Assembly (NCBI GenBank): GCA_026983775.1
Contig: JALSTK010000006.1
Location: 1 to 64,000 of the forward strand
DNA from: Calditrichia bacterium
GTDB taxonomy: Bacteria > Calditrichota > Calditrichia > Calditrichales > Calditrichaceae
Reading direction: 5' to 3'
Length of the DNA stretch: 64,000 bases
Shown in pieces: positions 3,701 to 22,569 of this stretch (the first letter of the stretch is position 1; each line of letters starts with the position of its first letter). The position numbers were made by a program, and so were the translations under genes. The notes below the pieces were generated by a model that saw only the letters and a program-made list of their open reading frames with translations, ran no database searches and was not told where the DNA came from.

Positions 3701-6700
3701 GCCGGATGCGGGTAATGCTACCCAAATTCCGGCAAATGGCACCGTTGATTTGCGTTTTTCGGTACAAATACCGGATGATGCCTCTATTGGCACTGTGGAT
3801 GTGGATGGCCTTATTTTAGGCACGGTGATCACGACCGGAGGCAGCGCTTCCGACCATCACGCGGATCAGACCGATCAGTTCCGGGTAACTTCCGGTATTC
3901 AGCTTACCTATCAGAATTTTACACCGCAGACGGTATCCGAAAATCAGAATACGGCTTTTGTCCTGCAAATCCAAAACAATGGTGATTACGATTATGTACT
4001 GGATAAAGATTCGACGCGCTTCGTCTTTGGGGCGCAGACTTTTTATTTGGATGGGAATCAAACCTTAGGCCCCTCTTCGCTTACAAGTCTGCAATTTGCT
4101 ACAGCGGCAATCACTTTGCCGAGCGGGGCGACGTATCCCGGCACAGCCTTTTTATATGGTACGGTCAACGGCAGCGCAACCTATGATACGCTGTTTACGG
4201 CGGACGGCGGCGATAGTTTACATGTCCAGTCCGTGGCGGATTTGGAAATAACGGCTATTCAACTAACCGATACCCTGGTTACCCAGGGCGAAGAAGGAGA
4301 TACCTTAAAAATCGCCATTACCAATATCGGTCAGGCTTCCGCTCTTATAAACAGTGTAGACAGTATATCCATTTCATATAATTCATCTTATACACTTACA
4401 CCGGTGCAGAATTTCCCTTATACTTTGCACGGTAATGAAAGCGATACCCTGTTTTTCAAAATTAAAGTTGCTGCGGATGCGCCTACCGGTCCGGATACCT
4501 TCCGGGTGGCCATCTCTTTCAGTGACGTAAACAGTGAACTCGTTTATCAGGAGGAGAAACCCGCTCTTTACGCTGCCTGGCGTATCATTAGTCCGGGGGC
4601 TCTGCATCTATTATCCGTTCAGGCGGATTATGATTCGGTAAGTACCGGTCAGAGCAACATTCCCGTATTGGTCCGCCTGGAAAATAACGGTGCCTATACG
4701 ATTCAGGTAGACAGCGTCCGGCTGACTCTGCCGACGCAGAACTATGTAACCAACACACTACTGCGCACGATTTCCCGTCAATTACAATCCGGCGAGCAGG
4801 ATACGGTCTGGTTTCATGTGGAAGTACGGAGCGATGCCAGCAGCGGAACCGACGCTCTCAATGCCAGTGCTTTCGGTATAAATTCTTATGATCAGTCGCA
4901 GCTTTCGGATCAATCTGCAGATACGACCGATAGCTGGCTGGTTCAGCAAGCCGTTGCCATAACGGTTTTGGATAACCAGCCCGTACAAGTATCAACCGGA
5001 CAAAATATCAGTCCCACAGTCGAGGTTCGTAATACGGGAGAAGCCGACCTGTTAATCGATACAACCAACAGTCGACTGGAAATGGTGGGACAGCCGGATT
5101 TCAGCAGACGATTGACGACACCTACGGTGATCGGCGGCAAAAGTACGGTAACCCTCCATTTCGAAGCGGGTGCCATAAGCCAATCATCCGGCACCTATAC
5201 TTTGCAGTTGAATTTGGAAGGAACTGAAAATCATGCGGCTTATAATCAAACGTTACCAACTGTACATGATCTTGTTGTGCAAAACCGGGCGGCAGTTGTT
5301 ATTGATTCCGTAATTGCAGAAGCGACTCATATTGCCCAGGGAAGCGACACGTTGATAACGGTACGGGTATCCAATACGGGTGAAGCAAAACTGATTGTGG
5401 ATTCCTTGCGGATTACCGCCTATGATGTAAATCAAACCGTCACACCGACTTTACCCTTTACCATGAATGGCAATAGCTTTCAAAGATTTCAGGTTCGGTT
5501 TACTCTTCCTGATGATGCGGCTACGGGTAATCAAATTTTGGATGCAAGAACAGCGGGCCGTGATTCCAATTATGTGGCGGCAGGAAATGATTCTACAATC
5601 CGTGATGAGGGGGCGAGCGTAACGGATAACTGGTCCGTATTTACCCCCGCAGATATTACGGTTACTTCGATCACTTCTCAGGATAGTGTGGTAAATCAGG
5701 GTCAGGATAATAATCCGGTTTATATTCATATTCAAAATAACGGTCAGTCACCGGCCTTCATCACCTCTTTAAAATTGGTGGAACGAATCGGTCTCTATGT
5801 TCACCACTATCCGGATCTGAATTTCACAGTTCAGGGTGGAAGTGATACCACTGTTACGGATTTGGTGGATGTTAAAATAAATTCAGCGACTGGCAAAGAT
5901 ACACTGCAGGCACAGGTAGGCTACCGGGATCAGTATTCCGGTAAGAAGTATAGTTATCAGAGTATCGATTCACTGGTATGGCGGGTTACGAGCGGCCGTT
6001 CTGCAGTAAGCATTACTTCGGTTGCTGCTTCTCAAAACAGTGTCTCTCTCGGACAGAATACGGCTAATGTCAGGGTGCACATCGTCAATGACAGCGATGG
6101 ACCGATCACAATTGATTCGCTCCAGCTTCGCTTTACGCATAACGATACCTCTGCATACGGCTACGGGGATCCGATCCCACCTCTGGGTTCGATCGACGGG
6201 GGACTTGAACAAACATATACCATTCCCATAACGGTTCGGGAAAGCGCCTTAACCGGTCCGGATACTATTTCATCCAGAATCCATATTCACGAAGAGATAT
6301 CGGGTAAATCGTATTGGTTCGAAAACTCTTCTGTGAACGATTCGTGGCTTGTGGAACAACGGCCGCAAGTTACGATTGCCAGTGTGCAAATAGCTCCGGA
6401 TACGGCCTCAACCGGCCAGCAAAATATAACGGGTACGGTGGTCGTTGCCAATGCCTCCGGAACCTACAGGGCCAATGCGCGGGTCGATTCCGTGCAATTA
6501 CACTTAAATCTGGGTGCTCAAAACCAGGATGACCGATTTATAATCATTCGAGCCGGTAGTCCCTCCCTGCCGCTTGAGATCGGAGCCGGAACGAATGTCA
6601 GTTTTCCCTTTGATGTGGCTGTTACCGACACGGCCCAATCGGGCGTTCATACCGCTACCGGCCGGGTCGTCAGTTCGGACGTAAATGACGATGCCCAAAG

Positions 6701-11724: not shown

Positions 11725-13638
11725 ATGAGCAGGCGTTTTCTCATATCACAATTTATCATGGTTCTGATTGCACTTCTGTTTGCCGGAAAAGAAGTGATGG
11801 CCCAGGAGAAGGGTCAGGGCGGAACGGAAAGCAATCTCAGCATGGGTTACGGTGCGCGGGCTTTGGGCATGGGGCAGGCCTTTACGGCCATGGCCGATGA
11901 TCCCACGGCTGTGTTTTGGAATCCGGCAGGATTGGAATATGTCTATCAGCAGAGTGTCAGTTTTTTCCATTCCACTCTGTTCGAAGGTACCATGTATGAT
12001 TTTCTGGGCTATGCGTATCCCACATTGAATCTGGGTACTTTCGGTATGGGTATAGGCCGGATCGGCATCGGGCAAATACCGCAGCGTGATGCGTTTAATA
12101 ATTACTTGGGTACCTTCTCCTGGGATGAAGTTCAGGGCTATTTCTCTTACGCCAAGAAAATCTTCTGGGATTTAACCCCGGGCATTACCGTCAAGGTTGT
12201 CCGCAAGGCCTGGAACAACCTATATAGTGAAGGAAGTAAAATAGACTACGGCGTGGGTATGGATTTAGGGTTTATGTACCGACCCGAAATTTTTACTTCC
12301 GCGTTGTTACGTGACTGGTCCTTCGGATTCAATCTACGCAATATATTTACTCCTCAAATAAAAGAGGGAATTGATACCGACGCTCTGCCCCTTTCCATTC
12401 GCGCCGGTTTGATGCGCCGGATTTTATTTAGCGGTGCGAATACGTTAAATGTTCTGCTGGATTTTGATTATTCGCAGCACCGTGATTTGCGGATTCATTT
12501 CGGTACCGAGTACCGTTTCAGAAATCTGGGCATGGTTCGTTTGGGCTATGACGGAAAGAATCCCACCTTTGGGGCGGGGGTTAAATATAGTATCTTTCAG
12601 ATTGATTATGCTTTTGGGAATACCAGTTATTCGGACGTTTTATCTGCCATGCACCGGTTTTCTCTGTCTTTTAATTTCGGTTTGAACCGGGATCAACTAT
12701 TCGAAATTGCCCAGGCCAAACGAAAAGCTGAAGAAGAACGAATTATTGCCGATATAAGAGAAAAGGATCGGCAAAAATTTGTAGCCGAGCATCTGAGTAA
12801 AGCCGATAAATATTTTTCCAATGGTAAATATTTGGACGCAATTGTCGAGTATCAACAAGTAATGGGTCGGGATGCCTTTAATCCACGGGCCAAGATCATG
12901 CTCGATTCTTCGGATGTAATGTTAAAAAGGCAGCTGGATTCGGAACGAGCCCTGGCCGTTCGCAATGCCATAGATAAAGATCGGGCGGAAAATACCCGTG
13001 CCTTTGTAAACGAACATTTCGAGAAGGGCAGAACTTTTCTCAATAAGAACCGCTTTACCGAAGCATTGATGGAATTTAACCTCGCTCTGGATAAAGCGCC
13101 GAATGATCCGACTCTGGTGAGTGCCATTCGTACCACCAAGAGGCGTATGAATGAAGAGGTAAAACGTTTAATCGTGCAGAGCCGTAAACAATTCAAGCAG
13201 GGAAATTATGCCAATGCACTGAACCTTTTGGCAGATGCCAGCGTGCTGGGCGGAGATAATCAACCCATCCAGAATGAGATCCAAACGCTTACCCAGCGGA
13301 TCAGACTTCAGGAAGATATCCAGAAAGGATTAGGACTTTTCGATATCGGTCAATATGACCAGGCTTTGAAAATTTTTGAACAAGCTCTGAAGATCAGCCC
13401 GGAAAACAAACTGGCTAAACAATATTATGAAAAATCAAAAGTAGAAACCGTGGGTAAGACGGAGAAACTGGATCCGATCAATGAACGGCGTTTTCTGCAA
13501 GGGGTTGATTTCTTTGTAAAAGGGAAATATACTCGGGCCATAACGATTTGGGATGAGATATTAAAGAAATATCCTTATAATAAAAAGGTATTAAAGGCGA
13601 TACAGGGAGCCAGAGACCGGCTGAAAAAGACCAGGTAA
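11725..13638 (+). CDS. PorV/PorQ-like outer-membrane protein with C-terminal TPR domain
   Basis: The 637-residue product has an N-terminal signal peptide ending near AQE (about residue 27). The following GYGARALGMGQAFTAMADD and FWNPAGL are the hallmark of the PorV/PorQ/UPF0164 barrel family, which fills about residues 30-330. PorV shuttles T9SS cargo and PorQ acts in attachment, so a role in handling the giant protein just upstream is a reasonable inference. Residues about 335-637 are a charged helix followed by at least four or five TPR-like repeats (for example YFSNGKYLDAIVEYQQV and GLFDIGQYDQALKIFEQAL), which should lie in the periplasm. Family members usually end after the barrel, so the TPR extension is an accessory. 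The start follows the giant gene by 13 nt and has an AGAGAG-type ribosome site. Confidence 0.85.
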   Translation: MSRRFLISQFIMVLIALLFAGKEVMAQEKGQGGTESNLSMGYGARALGMGQAFTAMADDPTAVFWNPAGLEYVYQQSVSFFHSTLFEGTMYDFLGYAYPTLNLGTFGMGIGRIGIGQIPQRDAFNNYLGTFSWDEVQGYFSYAKKIFWDLTPGITVKVVRKAWNNLYSEGSKIDYGVGMDLGFMYRPEIFTSALLRDWSFGFNLRNIFTPQIKEGIDTDALPLSIRAGLMRRILFSGANTLNVLLDFDYSQHRDLRIHFGTEYRFRNLGMVRLGYDGKNPTFGAGVKYSIFQIDYAFGNTSYSDVLSAMHRFSLSFNFGLNRDQLFEIAQAKRKAEEERIIADIREKDRQKFVAEHLSKADKYFSNGKYLDAIVEYQQVMGRDAFNPRAKIMLDSSDVMLKRQLDSERALAVRNAIDKDRAENTRAFVNEHFEKGRTFLNKNRFTEALMEFNLALDKAPNDPTLVSAIRTTKRRMNEEVKRLIVQSRKQFKQGNYANALNLLADASVLGGDNQPIQNEIQTLTQRIRLQEDIQKGLGLFDIGQYDQALKIFEQALKISPENKLAKQYYEKSKVETVGKTEKLDPINERRFLQGVDFFVKGKYTRAITIWDEILKKYPYNKKVLKAIQGARDRLKKTR

Positions 13639-13660: not shown

Positions 13661-16600
13661 ATGTTTAAAAATGTAAAAAAGGAAGAAATTACCATTCCGG
13701 CCCAGATGAGTTATCTCATCCAGGTACGGGATTTTATTGATCATATCGGTAAACGCTATAGATTCGAAGAGAAAATTGTCAACTCTTTTAAACTGGTTGT
13801 TGATGAAGCATGCACCAACATTATCCGTCATGGCTACCGCGATATCAAAAATGGTGAAATAACCATTAAAGCCATTGTTCGTCGATTAAGTTTAACCATT
13901 CTGATTGTCGATCAGGGTAAAAGTTTTGATCCCCGACAGGCGGCCACTCCCGATTTGGCCAAATATGTAAATATCGGCAAAAAAGGCGGCCTGGGTATCA
14001 TGATGATGCGTAAGTTGATGGATGACATGAGTTATTCCGTCACCGAGCGTGGGAACGAATTTCGGTTAACCAAATATCGTGATCAGAGCCATGAATCGAA
14101 AGTAATGTTGTGGTGGCACGGCCTTAATTTGAAAGCTAAATATTCCATCTTTGCTTCGGTTATTTTTACGGTTTTGGTCCTGGCTATTTTTATCCCGATT
14201 TATATGAATACGAACGAAAAAGTCCTGGTGGATGCCTTATCCGTAACCGGGGCGGCTTGCCAGGCTATGGCCGATAATTCGGTGGATGATTTGCTGAATG
14301 ATAATAGCGCCGTACTGTTTGAAAACGCTTATTCTTTCAGAAATTCCGATTCCCTTCTGATCAAAGATGTCTTTGTGGTCGATACAGCGGGAGCAATCCT
14401 CGCCTGGGGTAATACCTCCCGAACTTATGAATTTTCAACTTATCCCAAGCCCGGGAATGCGGCTTTGGTCGATACTTTTAAAAACGCACGGGTATTCAGT
14501 TACGCTCTAAATGATACCGTGAAGATTTACGACGTTTCGGCAGAAATTACCCTGGGCGGCGTTAAAAAGATCGGTGAAGTACATGCCTGGATTGACCAGC
14601 AAACTATTGTTGACCGGGTCAATCATAAAAAACTTCGCCAGATTATATTTCTGATCATTATTTTAGTGGCCGGATATATTCCGCTAGTCTATTTAATTAA
14701 CCGTATCTTATCTCCATTTCATAGTCTGGCCGAATGGGTTCGAGAAGTGATTCATGGAAAAGTAGACCAGGACGAAATCGATATTGACGCTTCGGATGAG
14801 ATTGGTGAGATTGCTCAGGCCTTTAACGAAATGACTAGTAAATTTCGTGAGGCCCAGGTTAATTTAATGGAGCAGCAAAAATTGCAGAAGGAGTTGCAGG
14901 TTGCCCAGGAAATTCAGCAAATGCTATTGCCCAGCGATTTCCCGAAAGTTGAAGGATTTGAAATTGCTTCCTATTACGAAGCGGCCAAAGAGGTGGGCGG
15001 TGATCTATTTGATTTTGTTGAAGTAGATGATGAAACCATTGGTATTTGTGTGGCCGATGTTTCCGGAAAGGGTGTGCCGGGATCACTCATCATGACAATG
15101 ATCCGTACGGCTTTACGTCTGGAATCCCGCGGTAACAAAAATCCGGCCGATGTTCTGGCCCGGGTTAACCGCTTCGTGGCGGATGATATGAAACGCGGTA
15201 TGTTTGTTACCATGTTCTATATTATTCTGGATTCACGTAACCGTATTATTCACTATGCTAGCGCCGGTCATAATCCCATGATTCTCTACCGCGGTTCCAG
15301 CAGACAGACCTATTATCTGAATCCTACCGGATTCCCGGTCGGTATTCAATTACCCGATCTGCATCTGTTCGATAAAACCATTCAAACCGATTCCATCCGT
15401 CTGCGTGAAGATGATATTCTTGTTTTATATACGGACGGTATTACCGAGGCCATGAACGCCAAACGGGAGCTCTTCAGAGAAGAGCGCTTTCTGGAAACCA
15501 TTCGTCGTAATGCTCATCTCGATGTGGGTGAATTCGTAAAAAGTGTAAATCAGGATTTAAAAGCTTTTACCGGTGGTGCCCCTCAAAATGATGATATTAC
15601 CTTTGTGGCCGTCAAGGAACGCATGATGGCCGGTGACGTTAAGTATCGCTTACAGGAAGAACTGTTTAACATGATCGAAGAAGGGGTAAAGGTAAAAGAT
15701 GCTCTGGAAAAGTTAAAAGTATCTCCTCATCAGTATTATAAATACAAAGAGATCATCCAGCGCAAAGGGATGAAAGGTCTGCGTGATTATTTTGAAGAGC
15801 AGGACTATGTAGAGAAAAAGCACCTATCCATAGAGGCAAAGACAAAGATTTTTGATATTATACGCAAACATCCGGATTACGGACCTAAATTAATTTCCTA
15901 TGAATTGCGTAAAGACGAATATGGCAATATGAGAATCGATGCGGACCGGATTTATAATGAACTGATTAAACTGCGTTTAAATACGCAAACCTTACGGGAA
16001 CGCTATCTGCGTAAGAGCAGTAAACGTCCTTTAAAACAACCCGGTACCCCGCTGCTGACTCTCGATGGGAAAGTTATTTTGGACTTCGAATCCAGTGAAA
16101 GAGAGATAGCCAAACGTCATGAAGTAGAAGCTAAAGCCATGCGGGCTATCAAACCGGAGGAAACCGAAGAGCGGAAGCCGACGACCATTCACCTTACCAC
16201 TACAGAAGCGGAAGAGGAACTCTCCGGGAAATTCATGCATCAGGCAGCTACTATGCCGCCTGAAAAAGAAAAACGATCTGCAGCTCAGCCAGAACCGGAA
16301 GTAAAGGAAAAGGCAGCGGATTCTAAGCCGGATGTGAAACCGAAAACCGAGCCAAAAGCAAAGCCGAAGCCGAGAGCTGTGCCTGCTGCACCTAAGCCCC
16401 AGGCGGAGCCGGAAATGAAAGCTGAACCCGCGCAACCGGAAGAAAAGGGTACTCCGCAAATCAGGGAGGATCATCCGCCCGAGAAGGAAGTTTCCAGGAA
16501 AGACTTATTGCAGTCCGTCACTGCGGATCTGAATAAGGACGATATACTGCACTATTTTGATTTGGTGAAAGATGATTTTACAAAGATACGTACGATTATA

Positions 16601-17026
16601 GGGAATATAGAAGAAAGCGAACATTTAAAACAAGATATAAAGACTCTTAATGTATTATTGAAAATCAGCTTAAAACATCCTCATTTAAAGAAAATTCCTG
16701 ATGTCAAAGGACTTTTTGAACAAATTCAGCACATATTTGATATAACCTATAAAGATTTTGAACATATTGATGCTAAAGTTATTTATATTAATTACAAAGA
16801 ATTATTGAAATATTTCAAAAAAGACAATAAATTTAAAGATTATTCCAGTTTATTCGAAAATATAAATACAATCGGATTAATTCATCGCCATATACAACGG
16901 AGTGTAAGCGAACATTCTAAGGGAAAAACAGATAGTTATAAACAGATTCGGGAAAAATTAGCCAGTAAAAAAGTAATATCAAATACTGCATTATTAGAAG
17001 CGATAGAAAAAAATAAAGAACAATAA
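13661..17026 (+). CDS. Membrane RsbW-type kinase / SpoIIE-type phosphatase fusion with bipartite HTH
   Basis: This 1121-residue protein appears to combine both enzymes of a partner-switching circuit. Residues 1-145 form an anti-sigma-factor-like HATPase with N-box E49...N53 and a GGLGIMMM lid. A TM helix (about 157-180), an extracytoplasmic sensor region and a second TM (about 327-350) lead to a HAMP domain. A SpoIIE/PP2C phosphatase follows at about 413-651 (GGDLFDF with D448, ADVSGKG, YTDGI, NDDIT). Residues about 660-715 (VSPHQYYKYKEI, KGMKGL) and 722-786 (IIRKHPDYGPKLISYEL) read as the two consecutive HTH units seen at the N-terminus of IS481/IS3-like transposases. A Pro/Glu/Lys-rich linker (about 830-965) and an AT-rich helical tail (about 968-1121) end the protein. 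It lies 22 nt after the PorV-like gene and 45 nt before its STAS partner. The enzymatic assignment is strong; the role of the HTH is unknown. Confidence 0.88.
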   Translation: MFKNVKKEEITIPAQMSYLIQVRDFIDHIGKRYRFEEKIVNSFKLVVDEACTNIIRHGYRDIKNGEITIKAIVRRLSLTILIVDQGKSFDPRQAATPDLAKYVNIGKKGGLGIMMMRKLMDDMSYSVTERGNEFRLTKYRDQSHESKVMLWWHGLNLKAKYSIFASVIFTVLVLAIFIPIYMNTNEKVLVDALSVTGAACQAMADNSVDDLLNDNSAVLFENAYSFRNSDSLLIKDVFVVDTAGAILAWGNTSRTYEFSTYPKPGNAALVDTFKNARVFSYALNDTVKIYDVSAEITLGGVKKIGEVHAWIDQQTIVDRVNHKKLRQIIFLIIILVAGYIPLVYLINRILSPFHSLAEWVREVIHGKVDQDEIDIDASDEIGEIAQAFNEMTSKFREAQVNLMEQQKLQKELQVAQEIQQMLLPSDFPKVEGFEIASYYEAAKEVGGDLFDFVEVDDETIGICVADVSGKGVPGSLIMTMIRTALRLESRGNKNPADVLARVNRFVADDMKRGMFVTMFYIILDSRNRIIHYASAGHNPMILYRGSSRQTYYLNPTGFPVGIQLPDLHLFDKTIQTDSIRLREDDILVLYTDGITEAMNAKRELFREERFLETIRRNAHLDVGEFVKSVNQDLKAFTGGAPQNDDITFVAVKERMMAGDVKYRLQEELFNMIEEGVKVKDALEKLKVSPHQYYKYKEIIQRKGMKGLRDYFEEQDYVEKKHLSIEAKTKIFDIIRKHPDYGPKLISYELRKDEYGNMRIDADRIYNELIKLRLNTQTLRERYLRKSSKRPLKQPGTPLLTLDGKVILDFESSEREIAKRHEVEAKAMRAIKPEETEERKPTTIHLTTTEAEEELSGKFMHQAATMPPEKEKRSAAQPEPEVKEKAADSKPDVKPKTEPKAKPKPRAVPAAPKPQAEPEMKAEPAQPEEKGTPQIREDHPPEKEVSRKDLLQSVTADLNKDDILHYFDLVKDDFTKIRTIIGNIEESEHLKQDIKTLNVLLKISLKHPHLKKIPDVKGLFEQIQHIFDITYKDFEHIDAKVIYINYKELLKYFKKDNKFKDYSSLFENINTIGLIHRHIQRSVSEHSKGKTDSYKQIREKLASKKVISNTALLEAIEKNKEQ

Positions 17027-17071
17027 AACGCTTCCCGATCAATTATTGCATTCCTGCAAGAGGAGGATTGA

Positions 17072-17788
17072 ATGGAAGGAATTCAGGTCTCGACAGAGAT
17101 CGCTGGCAGCCACAATCAGATTTCAATTATCAAAGTGGGTGGTTATATCGATACGACTACCTCTTCAGAGTTGGAACGTGCTCTGGACTCATTACTGAAA
17201 CAAGGTCGGTTTTTCATTATTGTCGATCTGGGCAATGTAGATTACATAAGCAGTGCTGGCTGGGGTATTTTTATCAGTGAAATTAAATCCATTCGTGAGA
17301 ATGGCGGTGATCTGAAATTGGTTCGCATGGTACCTGATGTATATGAAATTTTTGAATTGCTGGAATTTCATCATATTTTGGATGTCTATGATACGGTGGA
17401 TGAGGCCGTAAATAAATTTGAGATGCTCCAGGCCGCCGGCAAACCTGTTGCCAAGGAGATTACATTACCCAAACCCGAACCGGTTAAACAACCGAGTACG
17501 GCTCCGGCAAGCTCCGAATCAGTGGCTCGGTCGGCAGAGGGAGAAGTGGAACAAACGGATGAAGTCGAAACCACCCAACAGGTGGATATCGCCGATTTAA
17601 CGGTTGACGAAAAAATTAAAATCATTGTCAAAGAAAATCCGGCATTAGGTGCATTTAAAATAAAAAAAGAATTAAATACAGCCCGTTTTGGTTATACCAA
17701 GATGGGATGGTTCCAGGTACGGGCGGAATTGGCCAAATTGAATCTGAATTCCAAAGCCCGTCGTTATCAGTTTGCCACGGCTAGTTAA
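17072..17788 (+). CDS. STAS-domain anti-sigma factor antagonist with C-terminal winged-helix-like domain
   Basis: Residues 1-115 form a STAS domain. YISSAGWGI aligns with the SpoIIAA phosphorylation loop, making Ser61 the likely acceptor for the kinase half of the upstream protein and the substrate of its phosphatase half. A low-complexity linker (about 120-170) leads to a C-terminal domain at about 177-238 (KIIVKENPALGAFKIKKEL, LNLNSKARRY). This domain aligns with residues 722-786 of the upstream kinase/phosphatase: K-I-x-x-I, P-x-x-G, I-x-x-E-L, L-x-L-N and R-x-Y are shared. Typical RsbV/SpoIIAA proteins are about 110 residues, so the extension is unusual. The GAGGAGG ribosome site at 17060-17066 fixes the start at 17072. 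Confidence 0.88.
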   Translation: MEGIQVSTEIAGSHNQISIIKVGGYIDTTTSSELERALDSLLKQGRFFIIVDLGNVDYISSAGWGIFISEIKSIRENGGDLKLVRMVPDVYEIFELLEFHHILDVYDTVDEAVNKFEMLQAAGKPVAKEITLPKPEPVKQPSTAPASSESVARSAEGEVEQTDEVETTQQVDIADLTVDEKIKIIVKENPALGAFKIKKELNTARFGYTKMGWFQVRAELAKLNLNSKARRYQFATAS

Positions 17789-17827: not shown

Positions 17828-18328
17828 ATGCCTGTAATAGTCGACATAGCCCTGATTACGGTTATCGGGGTAGGTATTATGTCCAATTTTTTTGGTTTAC
17901 CCGGCAATATTTTAATTGCCTTAAGTACGCTCTTCATGGGTATTACGACCGGTTTTAATCAATTCTCGGTTACTTTTATTTTAACGGTCTTCGCCGTTCT
18001 TTTAGCGTTCGAACTGGTTGAGTTTGTGATGATCTCTTTTACGGCTAGAAGGTTCGGTTCTTCCCGTTGGGGAATCGTCGGTGGAATTATCGGCGGTCTG
18101 TTGGGTGCCGCAACCGGCGCTTTTTTCACACCCATTTTAAGTGTGATTATCTGCTCGATCATCGGGGTTTTTATCGGCGCATTTAGTTTGGAATTCATTA
18201 AACAAGGAAATCTGAAAAGCAGCTTACGCAGTGGTCTGGGTGCCTTTATCGGCAAGATTGGCGGAGTAGCCGTCAAAACCATTGGTGCGTTAACCATGGG
18301 GATCATGATCTTGCAGCGTGCGCTTTAA
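17828..18328 (+). CDS. DUF456-family membrane protein
   Basis: The 166-residue product is almost entirely hydrophobic, with about four to five TM segments. The early FFGLPGNILIAL and the glycine-rich GIVGGIIGGLLGAATGAFF segment are characteristic of DUF456 proteins, whose function is not known. It starts 39 nt after the STAS gene, with GGTAGGTG just before the ATG, and is probably the last gene of the operon, since a hairpin with a T-run follows at 18359-18392. No catalytic residues are apparent. Confidence 0.8.
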   Translation: MPVIVDIALITVIGVGIMSNFFGLPGNILIALSTLFMGITTGFNQFSVTFILTVFAVLLAFELVEFVMISFTARRFGSSRWGIVGGIIGGLLGAATGAFFTPILSVIICSIIGVFIGAFSLEFIKQGNLKSSLRSGLGAFIGKIGGVAVKTIGALTMGIMILQRAL

Positions 18329-18358
18329 CTTGTTATTAATAAGGAAAGCATGTAATTT

Positions 18359-18392
18359 CCCGGAATAGGTAAAATCTGTTTCGGGTTTTTTT
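18359..18392 (+). terminator. Probable intrinsic terminator after the DUF456 gene
   Basis: CCCGGAA (18359-18365) can pair with TTTCGGG (18379-18385) around a 13-nt loop, with one G-T wobble, and is followed directly by seven Ts (18386-18392). The T-run abuts the ATG of the next gene, so the hairpin would both end the upstream operon and sit in the initiation region of the DUF4159 gene, which has no visible Shine-Dalgarno sequence. The stem is modest, hence the limited confidence. Confidence 0.5.
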
Positions 18393-19037
18393 ATGATAAA
18401 GATCTTCTTTTCCGTTTTTCTGATCATATCGTTCTCCTGCAGTCAACCGATTGCACCGGTACGTATTCATTACAGCGGTGGCGGTGACTGGTACGGGAAC
18501 AAAACCACCTGGCTGAATATCCTGCGTGAAGTACATCAGGTGGTAGGGGTGAATACGGCAAAGAGAGAAGTTGCCTATCGGATCACAGACCCGCAATTTA
18601 AAAATTATCCGATTGCTTATATAGCCGGCCACGGCAATATATTTTTCTCTCGGGAAGAAACGGCTGCTTTGCGTCGGTATCTAATTCATGGGGGCTTTTT
18701 GTATGCGGATGATGACTACGGTATGGATATCTCCTTTCGACGAGAAATGAAAAAGGTTTTTCCGGAGTTGAAATTCGTTGAGCTTCCCTTCTCGCATCCC
18801 ATTTATCACGATTATTACCAATTTAAAAACGGGCTGCCTAAAGTACACGAGCATGCCGGAGGCCCTGCCCACGGGTTGGCCCTGATCTATCAAGGACGAA
18901 TGGTTTGTTTCTATAGCTTCAATACGGACATCAGTGATGGTTGCGAAAATGCGGAAATCCATCATGATCCGGAACCGATACGACGCCAGGCCCTGAAGAT
19001 GGCTGTGAACATTTTTTTGTATGCGCTGTTAAATTAA
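18393..19037 (+). CDS. DUF4159-domain exported protein
   Basis: The 214-residue protein has a hydrophobic N-terminus ending in FSC, a possible but non-canonical lipobox. The rest matches the DUF4159 pattern: YSGGGDWYGNKTTW near the start, YIAGHG, a FLYADDDYG segment, and a C-terminal histidine-containing stretch (NAEIHHDPEP). The fold is thought to be glutamine-amidotransferase-like, but no activity is established. In Bacteroidota-type genomes DUF4159 genes often sit beside DUF4175 and BatA/MoxR genes, and here a DUF4175-like gene follows. The start is uncertain because the ATG is preceded by the T-run of a putative terminator and lacks a ribosome site; no better in-frame ATG exists upstream. 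Confidence 0.8.
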   Translation: MIKIFFSVFLIISFSCSQPIAPVRIHYSGGGDWYGNKTTWLNILREVHQVVGVNTAKREVAYRITDPQFKNYPIAYIAGHGNIFFSREETAALRRYLIHGGFLYADDDYGMDISFRREMKKVFPELKFVELPFSHPIYHDYYQFKNGLPKVHEHAGGPAHGLALIYQGRMVCFYSFNTDISDGCENAEIHHDPEPIRRQALKMAVNIFLYALLN

Positions 19038-19164
19038 ATCGGGCCCCGGTTGATCCCTTAAAAGAAATAGAGTGAGAAATATCAGGCCAAAAGGTTGTTG
19101 CAGTTTATCAGATTTTACATTTTAGTAAAAAATATCCTGCGACAAGGTGCAGGAATTTATTTAT

Positions 19165-22100
19165 ATGAATGAAAAAGAACAATATTTTTTAAGCAGTTTA
19201 AGGCGGTATGCCAAACGCTGGTTATGGTTTAATTTTTGGGGCGGATTTACAAGATTCGTACTCATCGTATTGATCTTGTGGATTAGCGTTGCCCTGGCTG
19301 ACCATTTGTTCTTTTTTTCCAGAATAACCCGCTGGGGCCTCTGGTTTGTAAACGCTCCCCTATTGATCGCTTTAGTTTATAAATTGTTATACCCGCCGCT
19401 TTATGCCCTGAGAAAATATAACAGAGACAAAGACTTAACTCCTTTTGCCCGAATGCTTGGGGCCTCTTTCTCTGTTCAGGAGGATGAATTTGTTATTGCC
19501 TGGCAATTGATGACGGACCATGAGCAGCCGGGTACATCACCGGGATTACGTGCCGAAGCTGTGCGGCATTTTTTAAATAAATACGACTCCTCTGTTTTTG
19601 CTTCGAAAATTCATCTGGCCGACTTTTTCCCTTCTATTAAATGGGTTTTAGCCATTATTCTGGGCGCCTTGTTGATAATGGGTTTTCGTTTTCAGGATAT
19701 TTCTATCGCTACCCTTCGTCTGCTTAATCCAACGGCTGATTATTTGCCGACTCCTCAATATCGATTTCGGGTTGAGCCGGGTAATGCCTATTGTTTAAAA
19801 GGTAAACCCATCCAGTTTTCAGTTCATTATAGCGGGCCACCTTTGCAGGAGGTCCATCTGGAGTTGGCTTTGCAAGATAAACCGAAGGAAACCCGCAGTT
19901 ATGTAATGCAAAAGTCGGATTCGGTTTATGTGTTAAAGATGAGAGATATTCGTCAAACCGTTTATTATTATGTGTGGGGTCTGCCTGTTGATGAAAACCA
20001 TTTTGGCGACCGGATCAAATCGGAACGCTATATGATTAAGGTATTGGTGCCTCCGCGGGTGGAAGACCTGCAGGTTGTGGTTATCCCTCCTTCTTATAGT
20101 GCTTTAAAGAAAAGTCGAATGGATAAAAATGTAGGTGATATTTCGGCCCTAACCGGGTCGGAAGTGGAACTTCATTTACATTCCAATAAACTTCTGGCGA
20201 GCGGACAGGTTGTATTTGCTTCCGGGAAAGAAATCCCGTTAAACATCAGCGGGCCCAGAATTTCAGCCCGGTTTACCGTAAAAAAGGAAGATTCCTATCA
20301 TATCATGATACGCGATACATCGGGGTTGGAAAATCAGAAGCCGATTGAATATCAGATCGGCCTGATTCCGGATGATCCTCCTTCTGTGGATATTATACAA
20401 CCCGAAGGCGATGTGGAATCGAATCTGGACGGTCTTTTAATAGTAAAAATGGAAGTCCATGACGATTACGGTATCCGTAACGTCGGGCTGAAGTACCGGA
20501 TTTTAAAAACGCAAAAATCGGAGACGGATTCTTCCTGGCAGTACATTCCGATTGAAAAAGGACAGAGGCGGGTAAAACAGGAGAATCCCCGATTCATCTG
20601 GGATTTTAATACATTGCCGCTTACCTTCGAGGATGTTATCGAATACTACGGACAGGCGGTTGATAATAATGTAATCAGTGGGCCGGGTATCGGTAAAAGC
20701 AAAATTTTACAGATACGGTTTCCTTCACTGCAGGATATATTCGCCGATTTCGATCAAAAGCAGGAAAAACAGGTTGAAGAATTGGAGGATGTGAGTGACA
20801 AGGCCAAAGAGCTTAAAAAAGCTCTGAAGGATTTAGATCGGGAAATGCATCGTGAAAAAAAGATAAACTGGGAAAAGAAGCAGGAGATAGAGAAGAGCAT
20901 CCGAAAGCAGAAGGAGATGCAGAAGCGGGTAGAAGAGATCAAAAAGAATCTGGATGAAATGATCCGGAAATTGGATCAGAAAAATATGCTCTCCCCGAAG
21001 ATACTCGAGAAATACACCAAACTTCAGGAACTTTTTCAAAAGGTGGTTACTCCCGAGCTTATGAAAGCACTTCAAAATCTTCAGAAGGCGATGGATAAAG
21101 CGGACGCACGGCAAGTGAAACAAGCTCTTCAACAATTAAAACTTAATCAGGAAGCATTCGAACGGAATATTGAACGGGCTATGGAATTACTCAAACAGGT
21201 TCAGTTCGAGCAGCGTCTTGATGCATTGATTCAAAAAGCACGCCATCTGAAAGAAGAGCAAAAAAAAATATCGGAACGCATAGAAGATCAGCAAAATCAA
21301 AGGGATCAATCCGCACAGGATATTGCAAAAACCGAAAAGAACCAGGAAAAGGCTTTTAAGGATTTCAGGCAGAGTCTCGAGCGCTTTCGCCGAGAAGAGC
21401 GCTTAGCACAATTTCCTGAAACCCAACAGCAGGTCGATTCCCTTTCAGCTCATGTGAAGAGCGACAGGATGGCTGAGAAAATGCAACAGATGCAGCAGAG
21501 TCTACAGAAAAACCGACTGAATTCGGCCCAACAGAGCTCTCAAAATATGGAACGAAATTTCAGCCGATATCTTCAGTCCTTACAGATGGCTCAGAAGCAC
21601 ATGCTGCAAAAGAGTAAGAAAAAGATTCAGCAAGCGATGCGACGCGCCTTACAACAAATTCTGGAATTATCTCAGAAGCAGGAATCGCTGCAACGCCGTA
21701 CCGGGAAATTGTCACCGCTGAGCGATCAATACAGTAAAATTGCAGAGCAGCAGGAAGGAATCCTGCAAAATTTTAATAAAACGATCAACGATATCATCCG
21801 ATTATCGAAAAAAACATTTTTCATCTCTCCGAACATGAATATGCCTTTACAGGCGGCACGACAAAATATGCAACGCTCGCTTAATCAACTATCCGAGCGC
21901 AATCGTTCCCTGGCACAGGGGAATCAACGGCAAGCAATGAGCTCTATGAATATCAGTGCCCTGCAATTAAAAGCCGCTCTTTCTCAATTAGGTAAGTCAA
22001 AATCGGGAACAGGCTTTGCTCAATTTATGAAGCAATTACAAAAAATGGCCGGATTACAGGGACAAATCAATAACCAGAGTATGAACCTCTTTCAACAACA

Positions 22101-22569
22101 GGGAAATGGAGGCATGCTTTCTGCTCAGCAAAGGGCACAGATGCGAAGACTGGCGGCTCAGCAGGCGGCGATGAGTCAGGCTTTAAAGCAGTTGAGCGAA
22201 CAGAAGAGTCAGCAGGAAAATACTCTGGGGCAGTTGGGCAAGGTGGCCCGGGACATGGAAGAGGTGGCAAAAGATTTGCTGAAACAAAATCTGAATAGAC
22301 GTACTATCGAGCGGCAGCAAAAAATTCTGTCCCGTTTATTGGATGCGCAAAAGTCAGTAAGACAGAGAAAGTATTCCAAGAAACGGAAAGCGGAACAGGC
22401 TAAAAAGTATGCGGTAAAAGACCCCGGGGAAATCGGGGCAACCACGGTTGCCGAAAAAGAAAAGATCGAGCAGGCCTTACGCGCTGCCATGCAGGCCGGT
22501 TATGAGCATGACTATCGTGAGCTGATTGAGGCCTACTTTAAACAGTTGTTACAACGGGAAAGCAAATAA
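19165..22569 (+). CDS. DUF4175-like membrane protein with very long coiled coil
   Basis: The product has about 1134 residues. Three N-terminal hydrophobic segments (about 17-48, 55-75 and 156-174) are followed by a beta-rich periplasmic part and, from about residue 525 to the end, a very long Gln/Glu/Lys-rich coiled coil with many QQ and MQQ runs. This layout matches the DUF4175 group, whose function is unknown. An upstream GTG at 19147 is in frame, but the ATG at 19165 has AGGA about 10 nt ahead and is preferred. It lies 127 nt after the DUF4159 gene, a conserved partnership in related phyla. A structural or tethering role is inference only. Confidence 0.75.
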   Translation: MNEKEQYFLSSLRRYAKRWLWFNFWGGFTRFVLIVLILWISVALADHLFFFSRITRWGLWFVNAPLLIALVYKLLYPPLYALRKYNRDKDLTPFARMLGASFSVQEDEFVIAWQLMTDHEQPGTSPGLRAEAVRHFLNKYDSSVFASKIHLADFFPSIKWVLAIILGALLIMGFRFQDISIATLRLLNPTADYLPTPQYRFRVEPGNAYCLKGKPIQFSVHYSGPPLQEVHLELALQDKPKETRSYVMQKSDSVYVLKMRDIRQTVYYYVWGLPVDENHFGDRIKSERYMIKVLVPPRVEDLQVVVIPPSYSALKKSRMDKNVGDISALTGSEVELHLHSNKLLASGQVVFASGKEIPLNISGPRISARFTVKKEDSYHIMIRDTSGLENQKPIEYQIGLIPDDPPSVDIIQPEGDVESNLDGLLIVKMEVHDDYGIRNVGLKYRILKTQKSETDSSWQYIPIEKGQRRVKQENPRFIWDFNTLPLTFEDVIEYYGQAVDNNVISGPGIGKSKILQIRFPSLQDIFADFDQKQEKQVEELEDVSDKAKELKKALKDLDREMHREKKINWEKKQEIEKSIRKQKEMQKRVEEIKKNLDEMIRKLDQKNMLSPKILEKYTKLQELFQKVVTPELMKALQNLQKAMDKADARQVKQALQQLKLNQEAFERNIERAMELLKQVQFEQRLDALIQKARHLKEEQKKISERIEDQQNQRDQSAQDIAKTEKNQEKAFKDFRQSLERFRREERLAQFPETQQQVDSLSAHVKSDRMAEKMQQMQQSLQKNRLNSAQQSSQNMERNFSRYLQSLQMAQKHMLQKSKKKIQQAMRRALQQILELSQKQESLQRRTGKLSPLSDQYSKIAEQQEGILQNFNKTINDIIRLSKKTFFISPNMNMPLQAARQNMQRSLNQLSERNRSLAQGNQRQAMSSMNISALQLKAALSQLGKSKSGTGFAQFMKQLQKMAGLQGQINNQSMNLFQQQGNGGMLSAQQRAQMRRLAAQQAAMSQALKQLSEQKSQQENTLGQLGKVARDMEEVAKDLLKQNLNRRTIERQQKILSRLLDAQKSVRQRKYSKKRKAEQAKKYAVKDPGEIGATTVAEKEKIEQALRAAMQAGYEHDYRELIEAYFKQLLQRESK

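Follow-up and report, generated by a model that had tools for sequence, protein, structure and literature searches.

In Vibrio fischeri, the serine kinase/phosphatase SypE controls the phosphorylation of SypA, a downstream STAS protein (PMC10120452). A DNA-binding output of a STAS protein has also been described: CapS joins a STAS domain to a winged helix-turn-helix (HTH) domain and acts as a DNA-binding repressor that is released through phosphorylation by a GHKL kinase (EMBO J 2026, PMC13373217). On the phosphatase side, PPM phosphatases select their STAS substrates through loops of the phosphatase domain (PMC11418112). Here we analyzed two adjacent genes in a 64,000-nucleotide stretch of a Calditrichota genome, hereafter the window, whose positions serve as coordinates throughout. 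The first gene encodes a kinase/phosphatase with two predicted transmembrane stretches, and the second encodes a STAS protein (STAS-A). A first-pass annotation of the window had proposed that the kinase carries two successive HTH units in the order seen in IS481/IS3-type transposases, and that the second unit is shared with the STAS protein. The two open reading frames hold the peptides on which this proposal was built (Table 1), and our analysis confirmed that the observation is real.

The kinase tail matches transposase profiles. The NCBIfam model transpos_IS481 matched the tail in 36 of 36 orthologues (best E-value 4.4e-16), and the IS3 model likewise matched it in all 36. For the kinase of the window, the transpos_IS481 match (1.5e-8) runs from residue 668 to 781 and from profile position 5 to 115, covering both HTH units in a single stretch and in the proposed order. 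In the reverse direction, rve-bearing transposases of other genomes matched the kinase-tail profile continuously, with E-values, calculated for a small sequence set, of 1.3e-13 for L131 (positions 2-135), 1.9e-14 for L128 and 7e-12 for L129. The similarity had first been seen by eye, with a call for profile support. This caution was justified, because the single-sequence Pfam matches are weak (HTH_Tnp_1, 0.008; HTH_21, 0.045). The profile support itself is strong, and individual orthologues matched HTH_28, HTH_29, HTH_23 and HTH_Tnp_1 with E-values down to 6e-11. Domain searches gave no match to an rve/DDE catalytic domain in either the kinase or the STAS protein. Therefore, the tail is derived from the IS481/IS3-type transposase family rather than a member of it. 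Searches of the PDB with profiles of the tail alignments returned no convincing relative, and Foldseek hits in the PDB (TnsB, Pax, IstA, FapR and BlaI, all with E > 0.1) are only suggestive. A tblastn search of the kinase tail against plasmids returned nothing.

The second unit recurs at the C-terminus of the STAS protein. Comparison of the two alignments by hhalign gave a probability of 98.5 and an E-value of 1.9e-15. Among 60 column-permuted controls the best E-value was 0.014, and the reversed profile gave 0.12. HTH_21 also matched 25 of 31 STAS tails (best E-value 6.5e-7). AlphaFold predicted four helices for unit 2 of the kinase, with a predicted local distance difference test score (pLDDT) of about 90, and four helices placed in the same way for the STAS tail (pLDDT 92.9). 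Both predicted folds are HTH-like and resemble each other; unrelated or non-HTH folds, which would have refuted the first-pass proposal, were not seen. At the level of motifs, P-x-x-G, E-L and L-x-L-N are in register as originally proposed. The proposed R-x-Y is not: the aligned pair is R-x-x-(Y/F), formed by R779 and Y782 in the kinase and by R231 and F234 in the STAS protein. The STAS-A tails carry a strong positive charge (mean net charge +8.9, isoelectric point (pI) 10.3), the STAS domain of the window's protein is acidic (-11, pI 4.5), and the linker between domain and tail looks flexible.

From its N-terminus, the kinase consists of an RsbW-like HATPase domain, two transmembrane stretches flanking an extracytoplasmic region, a HAMP domain, a SpoIIE phosphatase domain, the transposase-type tail, a disordered region and a C-terminal helical region. 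The solved structure closest to the HATPase domain is that of RsbW (6m36), and a Pfam search with the sensor region between the hydrophobic stretches gave no match. The ATP-site positions that we checked are conserved among orthologues, and both QNDD aspartates of the phosphatase are kept in 44 of 44 aligned rows. Because these positions and the STAS serines are conserved across orthologues, kinase and phosphatase activities are probably both present. A motif that follows HTH unit 2, K-x-P-G-T-P-L-L-T-L-D-G-x-V, is near-invariant in kinases of Calditrichota and of the phylum of genome G229, and is absent from those of G175 and G244.

Table 1. Positions of the kinase/phosphatase, the STAS protein, their domains and the upstream genes in the window
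Feature	Position	Strand	Evidence
Kinase/phosphatase, 1121 amino acids	13661..17026	+	open reading frame list, domain searches, hydropathy
HATPase_c_2 (RsbW-like serine kinase), residues 12-138	13694..14074	+	Pfam 2.2e-27
Two strongly hydrophobic stretches (residues 162-180, 328-346) enclosing the sensor region	14144..14698	+	hydropathy
HAMP domain, residues 345-394	14693..14842	+	Pfam 5e-8
SpoIIE/PP2C phosphatase, residues 456-652	15026..15616	+	Pfam 5.7e-51
HTH unit 1 (HTH_Tnp_1/HTH_23/HTH_28 type), residues 657-714	15629..15802	+	profile searches, AlphaFold
HTH unit 2 (HTH_21/HTH_32 type), residues 720-788, homologous to the STAS tail	15818..16024	+	profile searches, hhalign, AlphaFold
K-x-P-G-T-P-L-L-T-L-D-G-x-V motif after HTH unit 2, residues 792-805	16034..16075	+	invariant columns in kinase alignment A1
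STAS protein (STAS-A), 238 amino acids	17072..17788	+	Pfam STAS 2.1e-20
Candidate phosphorylated serines S60/S61 of STAS-A	17249..17254	+	S60 in 88/91, S61 in 89/91 aligned rows
C-terminal copy of HTH unit 2 on STAS-A, residues 171-238	17582..17785	+	HTH_21 profile, hhalign, AlphaFold
PorV-like outer-membrane protein with tetratricopeptide repeats	11725..13638	+	NCBIfam PorV_fam 1.1e-46
Giant repetitive surface-type protein with FlgD/type IX secretion system-like end segment	120..11711	+	open reading frame list, domain searches

The two tails are kept in orthologues and occur together in other genomes, in line with the first-pass annotation, which had named conservation and co-occurrence as tests of its proposal. 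Within Calditrichota, the kinase tail was found in 39 of 40 genomes and the STAS tail in all 40. Among 250 sampled genomes outside the phylum, from whose counts matches in G049 and G091 were excluded as transposases, five carry a tailed kinase, five a tailed STAS protein and four both (Fisher p 1.6e-7; the test counts every genome as independent, yet G084 and G229 belong to one phylum). In the phyla to which these tail-bearing outside genomes belong, the tail profile is present in 78 of 82, 7 of 9 and 2 of 4 species. In the phylum with 82 species, G327 and G352 gave only STAS-sized matches, and a kinase-type match is present in 76 species by our reading of the match table. Counted by phylum, two phyla besides Calditrichota have the kinase tail in most of their sampled species.

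A tree of unit 2 was built from 165 copies, with only 66 usable columns. Most STAS tails fall in one group (99/96) beside the kinase units, and the transposases lie outside. This topology fits one copying event between kinase and STAS protein but is only suggestive, as the deep forks are weak because of the small number of usable columns. STAS proteins of about 530-760 amino acids also end in unit 2. These long proteins fall elsewhere in the tree, as does the second unit of a 379-residue STAS protein from another phylum (G175; L132, 5677-6816), which contains two copies of unit 2 split by a helical, charged stretch. A second type of kinase, 1.6-2.0 thousand amino acids long, was observed in the phylum of G229 (L164-L168), with very long acidic disordered regions and C-terminal tetratricopeptide repeats. 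In these kinases unit 2 is kept and unit 1 is lost or degraded.

Of 35 kinase loci, 33 have a member of the PorV-like family, as a rule immediately before the kinase gene, and 27 have a member of the giant surface-type protein's family; both families recur upstream of the kinase across phyla. At almost every Calditrichota locus with sufficient sequence, and at most loci of the G229 phylum, a tailed STAS gene comes directly after the tailed kinase gene; in G092 a tailed STAS protein is present yet unlinked to the kinase. Downstream of the STAS gene, the window contains DUF456, DUF4159 and DUF4175 genes (17828-22569). At most Calditrichota loci, members of the DUF4159 and DUF4175 families are again found on the downstream side, but other phyla have different genes there. 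Most other Calditrichota encode a second tailed STAS protein (STAS-B) far from the kinase operon, usually inside a polysaccharide operon with Bac_transf, Poly_export/SLBB, Wzz/GNVR and FemAB-like genes; a search of the window's own genome did not find STAS-B. Given the PorV-like and surface-protein neighbors and the position of STAS-B in polysaccharide operons, the kinase-STAS system looks tied to the cell surface. PADLOC was negative for the kinase/STAS pair.

A conserved element, TGTAATTGACRKGGCGRAGCTRTA, lies immediately before STAS-B, and likewise before several further polysaccharide genes, in Calditrichaceae loci (L085 at about 4113-4126, L220, L227, L235, L241 and L244). Its core gave 28 matches in 15 genomes, compared with about 9 for the reversed control pattern. 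It is not in the window and had no Rfam match, and Rfam searches overall gave nothing. It resembles the ops/JUMPstart element.

From the computed homology, predicted fold, conserved active-site positions, conservation, co-occurrence and gene neighborhood, we infer the catalysis, substrate pairing, signal, DNA binding and controlled genes as follows. The reading that we favor, and to which we give an even chance, is a reversible phosphorylation switch of the SypE/SypA kind, in which the captured half of the HTH pair would let the STAS substrates bind nucleic acid. With the extracytoplasmic region and the HAMP domain, the membrane enzyme would sense an outside signal. Its RsbW-like domain would phosphorylate, and its SpoIIE domain dephosphorylate, the conserved serine of STAS-A from the kinase operon and, in relatives, also that of STAS-B from the polysaccharide-export operon. 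The enzyme bears the two-unit DNA-binding region of an IS481-type transposase, and the STAS proteins bear a copy of unit 2 on a flexible-looking linker. These tails most likely bind nucleic acid, phosphorylation would switch either the binding or the STAS dimer, as in CapS, and the STAS proteins would in this way act like response regulators for cell-surface functions. We favor this output because of the HTH fold and family, the basic charge of the tails, the flexible-looking linker and the CapS precedent. Several observations weigh against it. The membrane is an unusual place for a DNA-binding domain, unit 1 of the kinase is not basic overall, and the recognition helix of unit 2 is no more conserved than the remainder of the unit, with varying N-terminal residues. 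The TGTAATTGACRKGGCGRAGCTRTA element, which came up when a control element upstream of STAS-B was looked for, is not taken as evidence for a STAS target, since it also stands before other polysaccharide operons and is common to such operons in general.

Some of the same data bear on other explanations; the first-pass annotation had itself named co-localization on DNA and dimer docking next to a direct DNA output. Within unit 2 of the kinase, helix 1 rather than the recognition helix is best conserved, and the two partners do not have the same recognition helix in this unit. This would be expected if the HTH units no longer read DNA and unit 2 of the kinase pairs with the STAS copy, letting the enzyme, in a cell with many STAS and SpoIIE paralogues, reach its own substrates selectively, one of which is encoded in a distant operon. 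We consider such a docking label a serious rival, possible though somewhat doubtful. It would also account for unit 2 being the only unit common to enzyme and STAS protein, and for its retention in the long kinases with a lost or degraded unit 1. The numbers of proteins point the same way: relatives have one tailed kinase and usually two tailed STAS proteins, and a search of the window's genome showed no tail on its remaining STAS and SpoIIE proteins. On the other hand, the PPM phosphatases cited above choose their STAS substrates through phosphatase-domain loops, and a tailed kinase occurs in G244 with no tailed STAS protein found there, the reverse holding for G153. Alternatively, both tails may be DNA-binding and bring enzyme and substrate together on a common operator, or on nucleoid DNA close to the membrane. 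Like the STAS tails, unit 2 of the kinase is basic (mean net charge +6.7, pI 9.8), and unit 1 retains a transposase-like recognition helix, S-x-x-x-Y-Y-K-Y. However, a common sequence-specific site is unlikely because the unit 2 recognition helices of the partners differ, and the gene for tailed STAS-B lies at a distance from the kinase operon; we regard such a scaffold as improbable.

Since IS481-type transposases are present in related genomes, the tail might also be a functionless transposase fragment stuck to the kinase. We rejected this explanation on conservation and hold it to be extremely improbable: the tail has invariant residues and is retained across phyla, and a second copy is maintained on the STAS partners. 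DNA output, docking and a DNA scaffold, for their part, are not fully exclusive. A wider scenario, which we put forward tentatively, is that a membrane kinase/phosphatase captured the DNA-binding module of a transposase, that one half of this module was then copied to the STAS substrates, and that a signaling family was founded in this way. In such a family, pairs of homologous HTH units would allow the enzyme and several unlinked substrates to recognize each other, whether they dock or meet on a DNA scaffold that they share, and the secretion of surface proteins would be linked to exopolysaccharide in several phyla.

If borne out, the system would add a widely conserved example, from phyla in which regulation has hardly been studied, to the few STAS switches whose output is directly on nucleic acid or otherwise non-sigma. 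It is also a clear example of how bacterial signal transduction has recruited the DNA-binding parts of a transposase, and offers a testable handle on how one kinase/phosphatase selects STAS substrates among many paralogues. Tail-based docking would add to the picture of PPM phosphatases, as specificity there lies in phosphatase-domain loops.

Compared with IS481/IS3-type transposases, the kinase tail has two HTH units in identical order and in one continuous match, but it lacks the rve domain, is fused to signaling domains, and shares only unit 2 with STAS proteins. As in RsbW/RsbU/RsbV and SpoIIAB/SpoIIE/SpoIIAA, there is a HATPase kinase, a SpoIIE phosphatase and a STAS substrate, with conserved catalytic positions and serine. 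Unlike in those systems, a single membrane protein combines the kinase with the phosphatase, and the STAS protein bears an extra HTH; no anti-sigma target was identified, and no systematic search for a sigma factor or other switch target was made. For a kinase/phosphatase with a downstream STAS protein, SypE/SypA would be the closest functional analogue; it too combines kinase and phosphatase in one protein, and its polysaccharide setting is like that of STAS-B in the relatives. However, SypA is described as a single-domain STAS protein, and no shared HTH domain is described for SypE/SypA.

CapK/CapS also comprises, in adjacent genes, a GHKL serine kinase and a STAS protein with a C-terminal HTH-class domain, has an HTH on both partners, and conserves the STAS serine, which is the phosphorylation site in CapS and a candidate site in STAS-A. 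By the description of CapS, its MarR/ArsR-like winged HTH is set apart from the IS481 transposase-type HTH found here. CapK is a soluble HTH-STAS-GHKL protein activated by single-stranded DNA, whereas the present kinase is membrane-bound, fused to a phosphatase (HATPase-transmembrane-HAMP-SpoIIE-HTH-HTH) and without a STAS domain. CapK/CapS adjoins immune operons, and the neighbors here are the PorV-like protein, the giant surface protein and the DUF456, DUF4159 and DUF4175 genes. Given the different kinase architecture, the pair works at most like CapKS and is not a CapK/CapS member. The initial statement that no system of this kind had been described was therefore too strong for a DNA-binding STAS protein, since CapS is one that is switched by a GHKL kinase. 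A transposase-type domain common to enzyme and STAS substrate was not found in the open-access literature searched, a result that is no proof of absence. In summary, the DNA-binding STAS output is already published for CapS. New are the transposase-type domain, the fact that enzyme and substrate share it, the fusion of kinase and phosphatase in a membrane protein, and a surface-linked setting that is widely conserved.

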